IMG/VR virus record: IMGVR_UViG_3300043313_000799
Coordinates: 1-25,502 of that record
Source of the DNA: a virus
DNA length: 25,502 nt
Strand: one strand, 5' to 3'
Each line of letters starts with the position of its first letter. Position 1 is the stretch's first letter. The translations under genes were made by a program, and so were the position numbers. The notes below the pieces were generated by a model. The model was not told where the DNA came from. It did no database searches and saw only the letters and a list, made by a program, of their open reading frames with translations. Positions 3 through 16,495 of the stretch are shown piece by piece.

Positions 3-368
3 AACGCCTACGACGGGGCCATCCTGTTGATGCCACGCTTTGTGCCCGGGACCATGATGATCGAGAAGGTCAGAGCTGTCCGTGACTACAGGGCCTGGCG
101 AGAGGGCGCGTTCGAGTTCGAGATCTACCTCGAAGACGACGGCTCGGAGTACATCGTCCAATTGGACCAAGGGTCAAAGTCTGCGCATCCGCTGGTTGCG
201 TTGGTTCAGCGGCACCCCGGTATCCTCCGGAGCGAAGCCGCAAAGCTGCTGAACATCGACGAGTCGAACGTCTCACGGGCGGCCAAGAGGCACGGCCTCG
301 TGTTGCGAAAGGTGGAGAAAGAGGGGGCAGGGCGACGTAAGCTCGCAGTTTTCCCGCAGAATTCATAG
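3..368 (+). CDS. C-terminal part of a replication-type ATPase with winged-helix tail (5' truncated)
   Basis: The reading frame is open to the left edge, beginning with residues NAYDGAILLMPRF, so this is the end of a larger protein. The first ~55 visible residues (an aspartate near the edge, then a K-R-containing strand and FEIYLEDDG) resemble the last strands of RecA-like/RepA-type helicase or primase-helicase ATPases. The final ~55 residues (LVALVQRHPGILRSEAAKLL, then DESNVSRAAKRHGL) form a clear winged HTH, which would bind DNA. The Walker motifs would lie outside the window, so the ATPase call is inference. The 3' end contains the first two copies of the iteron array. It is read in the same direction as the next gene and 140 bp before it. 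Alternative: any ATPase or regulator ending in a winged helix. Confidence 0.5.
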   Translation, partial: NAYDGAILLMPRFVPGTMMIEKVRAVRDYRAWREGAFEFEIYLEDDGSEYIVQLDQGSKSAHPLVALVQRHPGILRSEAAKLLNIDESNVSRAAKRHGLVLRKVEKEGAGRRKLAVFPQNS

Positions 369-430
369 GTAAGAACGCAGAATTGGACGCAGAAAACTGC
401 AGGGTCAGCGCAGAAAAGACCGCAGAATTC
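344..430. repeat. Six phased 10-bp iterons (CGCAGAAWWS)
   Basis: Copies start at 344 (CGCAGTTTTC), 355 (CGCAGAATTC), 376 (CGCAGAATTG), 388 (CGCAGAAAAC), 409 (CGCAGAAAAG) and 421 (CGCAGAATTC). They form three pairs, with members 11-12 bp apart and pairs repeating every 32-33 bp, so all copies face about the same side of the helix. The array starts inside the end of the ATPase gene and fills most of the gap before a tandem-HTH gene. This is the layout of a replication-origin iteron array or a cooperative operator. Confidence 0.75.
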
Positions 431-508: not shown

Positions 509-844
509 ATGAACGGTAGAACCCAACGTAAGAACGAACTGATCCGTCAGGCCCGGGAGCTTGAGCGGGAAGGGTTGAAGCGCTGTGAGATCGCGGAACG
601 GCTGGGAGTGACGTGTCCCCGGGTGTCGCAGTTGCTGGGAGCGAGGCACGCTCACCGAAGTTACAAGGTGAAGGACGCGCTGATGGTCAAGAAGATGAAG
701 GAACGAGGGCTGACTGTAGGACAGATCAGCATGTACCTGAACATTCCCCGCTCTACCGTGACTGATTGGGTCCGGATAGGCGGGTATGCATCTTCGCCAG
801 ATTCCTCTTTGCCTGCTCGAGGAAGCGCAGCTCCGCGGCCGTGA
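509..844 (+). CDS. Small DNA-binding protein with two helix-turn-helix motifs
   Basis: A 111-aa protein with two HTH units in tandem: about residues 25-46 (CEIAERLGVTCPRVSQLLG) and 69-89 (TVGQISMYLNIPRSTVTDWV). Both have the resolvase/sigma-like HTH pattern, but there is no catalytic domain. The start at 509 is chosen because AAGGTGG lies 5 nt upstream; an in-frame ATG at 491 has a weaker site. It follows the iteron array directly, so it is a good candidate for the protein that binds the iterons, as repressor or initiator (inference). The last ~20 residues are Ser/Pro-rich and encoded over the end of the convergent gene on the other strand. Confidence 0.75.
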   Translation: MNGRTQRKNELIRQARELEREGLKRCEIAERLGVTCPRVSQLLGARHAHRSYKVKDALMVKKMKERGLTVGQISMYLNIPRSTVTDWVRIGGYASSPDSSLPARGSAAPRP

Positions 845-12627: not shown

Positions 12628-13013
12628 TGGGTAGGTGGGTCGCAGTTCCAGCCATGCACCTCAAGCCGTACAAGTGCGTCGCCTGCGGTGGTACACCGAG
12701 GGACGACGAAGTCGAAGGTCGGCCCAACATGCAGGCGTACTTCTGTGAGGGCGTGGATATCGACTGGGGGAACGCACTGTTCCTCTGTGGCAACTGCGTG
12801 CGAGTGCTCGGCGAGTTGCGGGGCATGGTCGGTGTAGGTGACCACAAGAAGGTCGTGCAGAAGCTGGAGCAGACGGAAGCTCAGCTGACCCAGGCCCAGA
12901 ACGAACTCGAGGAGGCCCACGACCGCATCGACCGTATGCTCGACGGGGTCAAGGCCAAGAAGGAAGCAACGGCAGCGAGGAAGCCGACGACTAAGAAGAA
13001 GGTGAGTGCATGA
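12627..13013 (+). CDS. Small protein with zinc-knuckle and coiled coil
   Basis: A 128-aa protein. The N-terminal half has CVACGG near residue 18 and CGNC near residue 51, two C-x2-C pairs fitting one zinc site. The second half is a heptad-like coiled coil (QKLEQTEAQLTQAQNELEEA) ending in a Lys/Ala-rich tail (KKEATAARKPTTKKKVSA). It follows the large terminase with a 1-nt overlap, so a packaging-related or virion accessory role is possible. No family recognised. Confidence 0.75.
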   Translation: MGRWVAVPAMHLKPYKCVACGGTPRDDEVEGRPNMQAYFCEGVDIDWGNALFLCGNCVRVLGELRGMVGVGDHKKVVQKLEQTEAQLTQAQNELEEAHDRIDRMLDGVKAKKEATAARKPTTKKKVSA

Positions 13014-13360
13014 GCGCATACAACGTCAAGCGAGCCGTCGTGGCCGCAGCCCCGGGTGCAGCAGCACCAATCGTGGTGGTCCCCGGTGTAGTCGGCAAGA
13101 GCATCGTGGTCCACGCGTTCTGGCTCGTCGTGAGTGCCTCCGGTACCCACGCTCGATTCCAGTCCGACTCGACCGAGATCTTCGGTGGCGGTAGCGCCAC
13201 ACAGGGGATCCCGCTGGGGGCCAACGGCGGCATCAGCATCGGCAACGCGGGCGAGACTCCGACGGACTTCTGGTTCCAAACAGCCGTCAGTGCTGCTCTG
13301 ATCCTCAAGGTCGAGGCAGCCTGCGAAGTCTGCGTCGGCGTCATCTATGAGGAGCGATAA
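13010..13360 (+). CDS. Small beta-sandwich structural-type protein, 116 aa
   Basis: Overlaps the previous gene by 4 nt (ATGA). Short hydrophobic strands and Gly/Ser turns (KSIVVHAFWLVVSASGTHAR, GGGSATQGIPLGANGGISIG) are typical of small jelly-roll virion proteins that decorate capsids or tails. It opens a run of five small virion-type genes. Function inferred from pattern and place. Confidence 0.75.
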   Translation: MSAYNVKRAVVAAAPGAAAPIVVVPGVVGKSIVVHAFWLVVSASGTHARFQSDSTEIFGGGSATQGIPLGANGGISIGNAGETPTDFWFQTAVSAALILKVEAACEVCVGVIYEER

Positions 13361-13749
13361 TGCCTACCGCACTATACGACAACGGCAGAGAAGGCTTCCT
13401 CGACGGGTCCATCGACTGGGACACGGACGACATTCGAGGTGCCATCGTCACCAGCTCCTACACCCCGACGCTCGCTTCCGACAAGTTCCTGTCCACTCCG
13501 ACGGCGAACATCGTGGCCCGCACCGGCGCCCTCACGGCCAAGACCGTGGCTGCTGGTGTAGCAAACGGCACCATCCCGCTGATGACTGCAGTCACCGGCT
13601 CGGCGTGCATCTACTTCATCCTGTTCAAGCACACGGGATCCGACGCGACGGCGAGGCTCATCGCCATCTACGACATCTCCTACACACCATCGGGGAACGA
13701 TCTGCAGATCTCCTTCTCCACAGGTGCGAACAAGGCCTTCAAGCTATGA
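13360..13749 (+). CDS. Virion-associated protein of a common phage type, 129 aa
   Basis: The N-terminus ALYDNGREGFLDGSIDWDTD matches a pattern seen in many phage structural proteins (…GREGFL-GDIDWDTD…), usually annotated as structural or head/tail protein of unknown role. The remainder alternates strands and Thr/Ala turns (TPTANIVARTGALTAKTVAA). It ends overlapping the next start (ATGA). Recognition is by memory of the pattern, not by search. Confidence 0.8.
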   Translation: MPTALYDNGREGFLDGSIDWDTDDIRGAIVTSSYTPTLASDKFLSTPTANIVARTGALTAKTVAAGVANGTIPLMTAVTGSACIYFILFKHTGSDATARLIAIYDISYTPSGNDLQISFSTGANKAFKL

Positions 13750-14027
13750 GCTACGTGAACTACAACCACATGAGCGACGACGAGCTGGTGGACGCCAACC
13801 TCGAGCTCTCGGAGAAGAAGGAAGAGATCAGGGCCGATCAGCTCAAGATCAACCAGGTCCTGACCGACCGAGCGCAGCGGGGCGTGCGTGGCGTGTACGC
13901 AACCAAGGACCGACCGTACCGCAAGAGCCTGCGCGAGCTCATCGAGGTCCCGACCAACGTCAGCGACAGGGATCTCCTGAAGCTGAAGGGTATCCACACA
14001 GAGGAGGAGGTGAAGGGTCTTGGCTGA
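13746..14027 (+). CDS. Small helical charged protein, 93 aa
   Basis: ATG at 13746 overlaps the previous stop (ATGA); a longer open frame upstream is out-of-frame shadow of the previous gene. Starts MSYVNYNHMSDDELVDANLE, then a charged helix (EKKEEIRADQLKINQVLTDR) and a basic segment (KDRPYRKSLRELIEV). Possibly a head or tail adaptor helper. Unknown family. Confidence 0.75.
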   Translation: MSYVNYNHMSDDELVDANLELSEKKEEIRADQLKINQVLTDRAQRGVRGVYATKDRPYRKSLRELIEVPTNVSDRDLLKLKGIHTEEEVKGLG

Positions 14028-14586
14028 TGGCCCCTTCTACCACGATTCGCGTCCACCGTTCCAGACCTCGGGGTTCGCGGCGGTAGCACCCCTCACCACG
14101 TCTGTAGCCCTGTGGCCCGTGCTGGGCAACTCGGAACTACCGACGAACTACTGGACGCCCGGCAAGCGTATCTGGGTCCGTGCCTTCGGCACCATGACCA
14201 CAGGCGCTACCCCGGGCAACATGACGCTGGAGATGCGTTGCGCCCAGGCCTCAGCCCTCGGCGTCATCATCGCCACGTCTACCGCCATCGCGTTGACGGC
14301 CAACAAGACCACCATCTCGTGGTTCTTCGAGGGCGTCTACGAGTGTAGGACGAACGGTGCCTCCGGCACTATGTTCGCGTACGGCAAGTTCATCGCCAAC
14401 CAGCTGGGCCTACTGATCCCCGCTGCCAACAACCCCCTCGTCATCCCTGAATCGGGTGCCATGGCTGCAGTGGCCATGGATACGACTGCTGCGGCCAACG
14501 CCGGCATCAGCCTGCAGATGAAGCGTTCGGGATCCACGGCCGAGTCCGTGACAGTCCACGACGTCGCCATCAACTCCATGAACTGA
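14020..14586 (+). CDS. Beta-rich virion protein, 188 aa
   Basis: TTG start at 14020 overlaps the preceding gene by 8 nt, with GAGGAGG upstream. The sequence is a long series of strands with Ala/Thr/Gly turns (RIWVRAFGTMTTGATPGNMT, then ISLQMKRSGSTAESVTVHDV), without charged helices, as in jelly-roll decoration or fibre-tip proteins. Its last residues (VHDVAINSMN) form the final strand. Structural role inferred. Confidence 0.8.
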   Translation: MADGPFYHDSRPPFQTSGFAAVAPLTTSVALWPVLGNSELPTNYWTPGKRIWVRAFGTMTTGATPGNMTLEMRCAQASALGVIIATSTAIALTANKTTISWFFEGVYECRTNGASGTMFAYGKFIANQLGLLIPAANNPLVIPESGAMAAVAMDTTAAANAGISLQMKRSGSTAESVTVHDVAINSMN

Positions 14587-14957
14587 TGACTCTGGTCGTC
14601 AAGGAGACGCTAGCCGGGGTCCTGATCCTGAGCACTGCCACGAGAAGGGATCAGGTCCGAGGCGTCATCAACTCCTACTTGGCCCGCCCTCGGGTGAACG
14701 TCGGCCCCTGGACTCCCGCCTTCCTTGACGAGAACTCAGGTAAGTACGGTGTAGGATTCGGGCTGATCGTCCGTGTAGAGTGGGTGAACAAGGCAGACGC
14801 TGATGCCGCGTGGGCTGACGCGACTGCCAACCTGGCGATCCTCGAAAGTGGGTCCTTCCTCGACCAGTATACGTCGAGGGAGGATCAAGACCAGCAAACC
14901 AACGAGACCATCTACCACCACAGGATTCACGTTCCAAGTAGGCCCGAGGACTTCTAA
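14586..14957 (+). CDS. Hypothetical protein, 123 aa
   Basis: One-base overlap with the previous gene (TGATG). Alpha/beta pattern: LVVKETLAGVLILSTATRRD, then a strand KYGVGFGLIVRVEWVNKADA, a helix (DAAWADATANLAILES) and an acidic end. It looks like a compact enzyme-like or adaptor fold rather than a fibre. No family recognised. Confidence 0.75.
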   Translation: MTLVVKETLAGVLILSTATRRDQVRGVINSYLARPRVNVGPWTPAFLDENSGKYGVGFGLIVRVEWVNKADADAAWADATANLAILESGSFLDQYTSREDQDQQTNETIYHHRIHVPSRPEDF

Positions 14958-14959
14958 CC

Positions 14960-16495
14960 ATGGGCATCCTCAAGTTCGATGGCATCAACGACTTCGTCCT
15001 GTTCAATGGGGCGACGGCGGCCTTGCAGGCAGTCCCGCAAGCGGGCAACACCATTGTAGCGGTTCTCAAGCGTGTTACCGTTTCGGCCGTGTGGAACGGC
15101 ATCGTGACGTTGGAGACTGCTGCAGCAGCTTACGATCTCACGCTAGAGATCGACCTGAGCAATCACCTGTTCTGGGACAACACCAATGCCAGCTTCGGGG
15201 GCACTATTACTACAGATGTAACCGACGCAACAGACTACCATCTCCTCGGGGCGTCAAAGGTTCTGGGTGGAGCCGTCACCTTCACCAACAAGAACATCAC
15301 TACAGGTGCCGCGGTAGGTCGCCAATCCTCAGCTTCCCTAGGGGACGCAGGGGCGGGCCTCGGCGCAAACGGGTTCGTGCGCCTGGGTATGTGGCAGACC
15401 TCCGACCCAGCGAACGTGTGGATAGCTGTTGTAGGTATTTGGAACAAGGCGCTCACCAACGCACAGGTAGATGAGTGCTTTGCCAACAAGCGCACGTCGG
15501 ACTTGTGGAACAACTCGGCTGGACCACCGCTAGTTCTCATCGAATGCAACACTCTTACTCCTGTAGACCTAGGGGGTAACTGCTCGTTCGTCTCGAACAA
15601 CGCAGCCTTGGATGCTACCGAGACTGCCGAGAATTGGCAGTTCGACGGCAAGGGGTACAACCTCTCGGTTCCGACGTTCCGACCTTTGCTGATGACGCTG
15701 GTCAAGCCCTTCAAGGGGCTGCCTATCTTGGGCCAGCTTGCTCCTGCTCCTACGCCCCTAACGTCAGGGCCGGACAGTATCAGCCTCGGGGATATCGCGT
15801 CAGCAGAGGTAGTGCCTGCGCTGAATCTGCAGGACCAGATGCTCCTCACGGGGATTGCCTCGAGCGAGGCAGTCTCGGCTCTGAACCTCCAGGACCGCAT
15901 CGCCCTGACGGGCATCGCTACAGGGGAAGCGCTGAGTGCCCTCGCGCTCCTCGACAAGATGAACTTGGCAGGCATCGCGTCTGCCGAAGCGGTCAGTGCC
16001 ATCACTTTGAAGGAGTTCCTTGTTCTCACAGGGATCGCCAGTGCTGAGGCTGTAGGGGCACTAAAGCTTACGGACTTCATCACGCTCGCGGGTATCGCAA
16101 GCGGCGAGAACGTGCCCGCCCTGAGGATGCCTGACCAGATCTTCCTGTCGGGTATCGCTTCGGCCGAGAACGTGCCCGCCGTGTCGCTTGGCGCCACTGA
16201 CACCATCAACCTGACGGGGATCGCCACGGGCGAAGCGGTCAGCGCGGTCGCGCTCAAGGATCTTCTCACCCTCGCGGGTGTGGCCTCAGGTGAGGCGCTC
16301 TCCGCTGTCAAGTTGACCGACCAGCTCGGTCTTTCAGGTATAATCTCAGGTGAGATTGTTCCAGGTATCTTCCAACCGTCCATCAATCTAGTGGGCATCG
16401 CGTCAGCTGAGAGTGTGCCGGGAGTGACCCTGACCGAACCCGGTGTCAGCACAGGGAACCAAACCAGACTGCTAATGACAGGAGTAGGAAACTAA
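14960..16495 (+). CDS. Fibre-like protein: LamG-type domain plus 11 short repeats
   Basis: A 511-aa protein. Residues 1-~215 have the pattern of a concanavalin A-like/LamG domain (ILKFDGINDFVLF start, FVRLGMWQTSDPANVWIAVV, GIWNKALTNAQVDE), which usually binds sugars. After a Pro-rich hinge (~260), residues ~272-500 hold 11 imperfect repeats of about 20 aa with core GIASAEAVxALxL. Similar GIxSAEA repeats occur in other phage structural proteins and may form a beta-helical or extended shaft (known pattern, fold inferred). Likely a host-binding or decorating fibre. Short coupled gene follows (TAATG). Confidence 0.75.
   Translation: MGILKFDGINDFVLFNGATAALQAVPQAGNTIVAVLKRVTVSAVWNGIVTLETAAAAYDLTLEIDLSNHLFWDNTNASFGGTITTDVTDATDYHLLGASKVLGGAVTFTNKNITTGAAVGRQSSASLGDAGAGLGANGFVRLGMWQTSDPANVWIAVVGIWNKALTNAQVDECFANKRTSDLWNNSAGPPLVLIECNTLTPVDLGGNCSFVSNNAALDATETAENWQFDGKGYNLSVPTFRPLLMTLVKPFKGLPILGQLAPAPTPLTSGPDSISLGDIASAEVVPALNLQDQMLLTGIASSEAVSALNLQDRIALTGIATGEALSALALLDKMNLAGIASAEAVSAITLKEFLVLTGIASAEAVGALKLTDFITLAGIASGENVPALRMPDQIFLSGIASAENVPAVSLGATDTINLTGIATGEAVSAVALKDLLTLAGVASGEALSAVKLTDQLGLSGIISGEIVPGIFQPSINLVGIASAESVPGVTLTEPGVSTGNQTRLLMTGVGN
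15775..16440 (+). repeat. Eleven ~60-bp coding repeats (GIASAEAV units)
   Basis: Each unit encodes about 20 residues of the form L-x-G-I-A-S-A-E-A-V-x-A-L-x-L-x-D-x-I. The DNA of the units has diverged more than the protein core, indicating old duplication with selection on the amino acids. Two units (7 and 11) carry small insertions, and unit 10 is the most degenerate (GIISGEIVPG). Confidence 0.85.

Follow-up and report, generated by a model that had tools for sequence, protein, structure and literature searches.

An iteron-like repeat array at the 3' end of a probable RepA-like helicase gene as a candidate phage replication origin

The 25,502-nt stretch analysed here (the window) is an IMG/VR fragment of a phage whose genes include those for a terminase, a P22-like portal and an SU10-like adaptor. 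It carries near its start an 87-bp array of short direct repeats (344-430, plus strand) which is probably the site where copying of the phage DNA starts. We propose that the array serves as the iteron, or initiator-binding, part of the replication origin and that this origin lies at the 3' end of the gene for the replicative helicase. A RepA-like AAA_25 helicase would bind the CGCAGAA copies through its winged-helix tail, helicase rings would assemble on them, the adjacent DNA would be opened by the helicase, and a partner RepB-type primase would lay the first primers, with the helicase acting as its own initiator. We infer that the truncated ORF at the contig end encodes such a helicase, that its tail binds the array and that replication starts there, and we assign this full mechanism a probability of roughly 0.57. 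Membership of the array in a replication module is a safer proposition than the mechanism as a whole, while recognition of the array by the helix-turn-helix (HTH) protein encoded next to it is a less secure one.

Six copies had been predicted at 344, 355, 376, 388, 409 and 421, with spacings of 11, 21, 12, 21 and 12 bp, and this description was confirmed. The core CGCAGAA is exact in five copies, all in one orientation: CGCAGAATTC at 355-364 and again at 421-430, CGCAGAATTG at 376-385, CGCAGAAAAC at 388-397 and CGCAGAAAAG at 409-418. The remaining copy, CGCAGTTTTC (344-353), lies within the 3' end of ORF 3-368, has two mismatches to the consensus among the seven core positions and is counted as degenerate only. 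Together the copies make three pairs, 11-12 bp apart within a pair and 32-33 bp between pair starts. They span the stop codon of ORF 3-368 (366-368), the array covering the final 25 bp of that gene and lying upstream of ORF 509-844.

What is unusual about the motif is its clustering, not its frequency in the window. With one mismatch allowed, it occurs 7 times against 7.8 expected, which is no excess, while exact CGCAGAAWWS sites are confined to the array. Outside it, 7-mers with five copies in 90 bp are found only in an Asp/Glu-rich coding run (2124-2303), and when the window was shuffled 300 times under a first-order Markov model, no shuffle yielded a 7-mer so clustered. On the 8-mer score used in the survey described below, which is coarser, the array region falls in the top 5.3% of such intervals across the window. 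Its GC content is 0.49 against 0.62 for the window, a value equally low in 1.5% of 87-bp intervals, and the neighbouring stretch (431-508) is GC-rich (0.63). In its non-random cluster of short direct repeats that are nearly identical, the array matches the repeat pattern by which iterons are recognized. The proposal that all copies face one side of the helix held roughly. Strict helical phasing was rejected: the resultant length is 0.76 at 10.5 bp per turn (reached by 2.5% of random placements), with a drift of about one third of a turn across the array, and 0.96 at 11.0 bp per turn.

The gene into which the array reaches is cut by the contig end. Of ORF 3-368 (plus strand) just the C-terminal 121 aa fall within the window, without Walker motifs, the ATPase core lying beyond the contig end. 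It is most likely the C-terminal end of an AAA_25 (RepA-like) helicase, including the winged-helix tail, because primase and helicase genes stand at the same place in the best relative, G003 (46.9 kb). This relative shares with the window its terminase (62% identity), capsid (59%) and portal (50%) as well as a conserved minus-strand early block. Directly preceding that block in G003 are a RepB_primase gene (12946-13788, plus strand; PF16793, E=9e-11) and an AAA_25 helicase gene (13785-14822, plus strand; PF13481, E=3e-10), and ORF 3-368 occupies the position of the latter. The segment 183-356 (plus strand), a probable winged-helix tail and our proposed reader of the array, matched the Pfam families MarR_2 (E=0.007) and AbiEi_4 (E=0.018), though neither match reaches the curated threshold. 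When compared with a profile built from the tails of AAA_25 helicases, the ORF scored a weak 6.1 bits, which ranks first among the ORFs of the window and was equalled by none of 2000 shuffles. Searches of viral contigs, phages and plasmids returned no significant direct homologue, and an AlphaFold model built without an alignment was uninformative (pLDDT 43). As a helicase gene, the ORF is well identified by its position and only weakly by its sequence; the replication ATPase gene of the original prediction draws support from synteny and, weakly, from sequence. The initiator gene to be expected beside iterons would be this probable helicase, recognized by synteny in an ORF that is truncated and of weak homology.

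In G003 an array of the form CAGTTTGTC-CAGTTTGTC-CGGTTTGCG begins 15 bp past the helicase stop and is the only exact tandem 9-mer in the 46.9 kb once low-complexity units are excluded. No plus-strand gene, HTH or otherwise, lies between the G003 helicase and the minus-strand block, and no RepC-like gene was found in this genome. An early-gene search recovered only G003 and a near-identical contig. GC skew, examined as a sign of an origin, gave no clean signal: the minimum in G003 does not coincide with the array but falls at 12.7 kb, close to the primase start, a point at which the genes also change direction.

Mycobacterium phage Boilgate, which has a related helicase, has a 240-bp gap behind gene 66, its helicase gene, and in this gap lie CAGTCGGTGCA-type copies of either orientation. 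As both G003 and Boilgate showed arrays behind the helicase, we surveyed AAA_25 helicase genes from IMG/VR, GTDB genomes and phage records (153 after removal of redundancy). Within loci of about 8 kb, the score was the number of exact 8-mer pairs, in direct or inverted orientation, found in the 300 bp at each helicase stop. These 300 bp were the most repeat-rich stretch of the locus in 27 of 153 cases, where about one was expected, and arrays were present at 16% of helicase stops against 2% of other ORF stops in the same loci. Among stops followed by a gap of at least 100 bp, arrays were present at 18 of 86 helicase stops (21%) and at 10 of 405 other ORF stops (2.5%; Fisher p=1.5e-8). Most of the 153 helicases have no array at the stop, and the same was found for Larva, Quammi and their relatives, in which the helicase is present. 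The motifs are 8-12 bp long and private to each element (TGAGACAACTG, TTGGCACACCAG, CAGTCGGTGCA, TTGAACGG, CTCATCTTCG, TTGGCAATG, GAAAATGG), and some loci can be grouped by them (L180 and L181 with TTGGCAATG; L135 and L114 with TGAGACAAC). Many loci feature two opposed repeat clusters, whereas the array of the window is one-directional. Known families encoded just behind the arrays were HNH, VRR-NUC and DEAD/ResIII helicases, and never a tandem-HTH gene. This distribution suggests that in many phages the origin follows directly on this helicase gene and uses a repeat peculiar to that phage. Of all arrays surveyed the strongest, in a Chthonomonadales contig (L252:3179-3420), consists of TGAGCGCCTATG units in alternating orientation behind the AAA_25 gene and extends past the stretch examined.

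No relative sharing the CGCAGAA array came to light, and a loose-pattern search matched 45 viral contigs, mostly inside long ORFs or in 11-12 bp tandem repeats, with none of the loci related to the window. CGCAGAA arrays at L010:2744-2786 and L011:3636-3678 sit just upstream of ORFs with a weak match to the AAA_25 profile, so some arrays may precede the helicase rather than follow it. Irregularly spaced, non-coding CGCAGAACGG arrays immediately follow stop codons in some unrelated viral contigs (L046:2359-2464; also L007, L023 and L047), at loci where no AAA_25 helicase could be detected. Tandem repeats of 11 bp (AAATCGCAGAA, 6-7 copies) occur outside ORFs of at least 100 aa at approximately L038:4786-4850 and L050:6333-6400.

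If the helicase tail reads the array, motif and tail are expected to change together. We compared them by Mantel correlation in the 27 array-bearing loci, using only DNA downstream of the stop. Motif similarity rose with similarity of the tail (r=0.54), and the partial correlation that controls for the ATPase core was 0.476, a value reached in none of 3000 permutations. The converse partial correlation, of motif with core while the tail was held constant, was 0.06 (593 of 3000 permutations). Omission of the closest pairs left a motif-tail correlation of 0.40. Such co-variation backs the helicase tail as the reader of the array; it is support and not proof, since a tail and the array DNA beside it may also co-vary through joint inheritance.

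The competing readings turn largely on ORF 509-844 (plus strand), a 111-aa protein that may be a bystander regulator. Pfam places Sigma70_r4 (residues 7-43) and HTH_23 (58-89), both generic HTH models, in its two halves, and the structure model shows two three-helix units (pLDDT 68), for which Foldseek returned no match at E<=0.001. Searches of viral contigs, phages and plasmids gave no useful homologue. A ribosome-binding site, AAGGTGG, precedes the ORF at 498-504, and its 3' end overlaps that of a minus-strand ORF (753-1001) by 92 bp (753-844). Its two HTH units and the paired sites, together with the end of the array only 78 bp upstream of its start codon, make it conceivable that this protein binds the pairs and regulates its own transcription, perhaps as a master regulator. 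We consider this unlikely: a scan of 200-1100 for promoters of the sigma-70-like type found none, two copies lie inside the preceding gene, the array of G003 has no plus-strand gene after it at all, and equivalent arrays behind AAA_25 helicases precede HNH, VRR-NUC or another helicase. The array goes with the helicase and not with the HTH gene, because in G003 and in the surveyed loci arrays occur without such a gene. The original prediction had offered a phage origin or a master operator; of these the origin is favoured, by the enrichment of arrays at AAA_25 helicase stops and by known layouts of this kind.

RSF1010 combines an AAA_25-type helicase (RepA) and a RepB-type primase with iterons at oriV, a pair resembled by the RepB_primase and AAA_25 helicase, which are found in G003 only, this part of the genome lying outside the window. 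As the HTH gene comes directly after the array, its product could be imagined as an initiator in the manner of RepC, after whose melting of oriV the RSF1010 RepA helicase is loaded (PMC8965321). In RSF1010 a separate RepC acts at oriV, but G003 possesses the replication module and a repeat array with neither a RepC-like gene nor a plus-strand HTH gene, and the motif-tail co-variation points to the helicase; we rate this arrangement as quite improbable. The earlier suggestion that the two-HTH protein reads the paired sites is not supported: comparable arrays lie beside helicase genes that lack such an HTH neighbour, and array motifs co-vary with the helicase tail. Less probable still is some other role, in partition, packaging or a transcription terminator or antiterminator region, or a non-functional expansion of repeats. 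A branched GC-rich hairpin (431-476) does follow the array, between it and the HTH gene, but no par genes turned up in the protein searches, 7 kb separate the array from the gene for the small terminase subunit, and the positional rule of the survey would become a coincidence; the diverged copies and their regular 32-33 bp pair spacing are unlike simple slippage. The folding of the 78-nt stretch has a z-score of -1.77 (11 of 200 shuffles equally stable), and a simple terminator was rejected, as the plus strand has no T-run. The hairpin may mark a transcript end, help melting or act as a priming site.

Initiation by the helicase itself, proposed here to occur at repeats next to its own gene, has counterparts in other elements. 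The alpha protein of the phage satellite P4 is an initiator helicase with a winged-helix origin-binding domain, acting with ori and crr iterons. To our knowledge, the origin elements of P4 show no such link to the gene's 3' end as is seen behind AAA_25 helicases. In the pRN1 replicon, ORF904, a primase/helicase with a C-terminal winged helix, has its essential origin in the 166 bp downstream of the gene (PMC4234260, where the P4 alpha protein is also named); that origin is a stem-loop and not a set of iterons, and the helicase belongs to SF3. In SCCmec, short repeats that follow directly on the helicase gene are bound by the isolated C-terminal domain of Cch2 (PMC7581432), the differences being a 3'-to-5' helicase, an A-family primase-polymerase and a cassette element.

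A further parallel is offered by SaPIs and other PICIs. The C-terminal domain of SaPI Rep binds iterons directly downstream of the rep gene (PMC7581432), and the PICI origin, immediately 3' to rep, has been described as unmatched in its layout by any other known bacterial replicon (PMC6092414). Presuming that ORF 3-368 is the helicase, the window too has its repeats immediately 3' of an initiator-helicase gene, and many of the surveyed AAA_25 arrays share the opposed clusters. The AAA_25 elements differ in their helicase, of the RecA/RepA fold and paired with or fused to RepB_primase or Prim-Pol, and in being phages and prophage-like loci. In place of a PICI-type Pri-Rep in a phage-inducible island we found an AAA_25 helicase in G003 and phage structural genes in the window. 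The window would therefore resemble SaPI, PICI and Cch2 in its proposed logic but is not a PICI, since it differs in helicase family and in type of element and has a one-directional array. Surveyed AAA_25 elements whose repeats form opposed clusters look like an exception to the uniqueness described for PICIs. In the open-access papers searched we found no account of this layout for RepA-like phage helicases.

We give a somewhat better than even chance to the reading that a large class of phages and prophages with RepA-like AAA_25 helicases has self-contained origins made of a helicase gene with private iterons at its 3' end, in which the winged-helix tail and an 8-12 bp repeat co-evolve as lock and key, making origin and specificity predictable from one gene end. 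Most phage origins in public data are unknown and have no shared sequence. Were the rule to hold, one could look for a phage's origin directly behind a single gene wherever such a helicase is encoded, matched pairs of tail and repeat would form a set for deciphering the winged-helix recognition code, and in laboratory strains the same pairs might be used to build compatible phage-derived plasmids. PICI-like logic would then extend to a second, unrelated helicase fold, raising the question of why unrelated folds reached the same layout.

Several minor observations accompany these results. A weak tandem-HTH match led to the Streptomyces phages Bing and pSt2402, in which TTAGTCACTT- and AAGTGGCAAGT-type repeats in both orientations (L065:1896-2396; L066:1929-2354) occupy a gap of 400-500 bp after a DEAD-type helicase gene; the downstream protein that gave the match is annotated in some records as an RNA-dependent RNA polymerase. 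Both phages were dropped as parallels, their helicase being DEAD-type and not AAA_25. The minus-strand gene at 1754-2563 of the window encodes a protein with a long Asp/Glu run between conserved ends, the C-terminal 75 aa of which are 49% identical in G003. The plus-strand gene at 14960-16495 encodes many GIASAEAVSAL-like repeats in the second half of its product, which is probably a virion or fibre protein.
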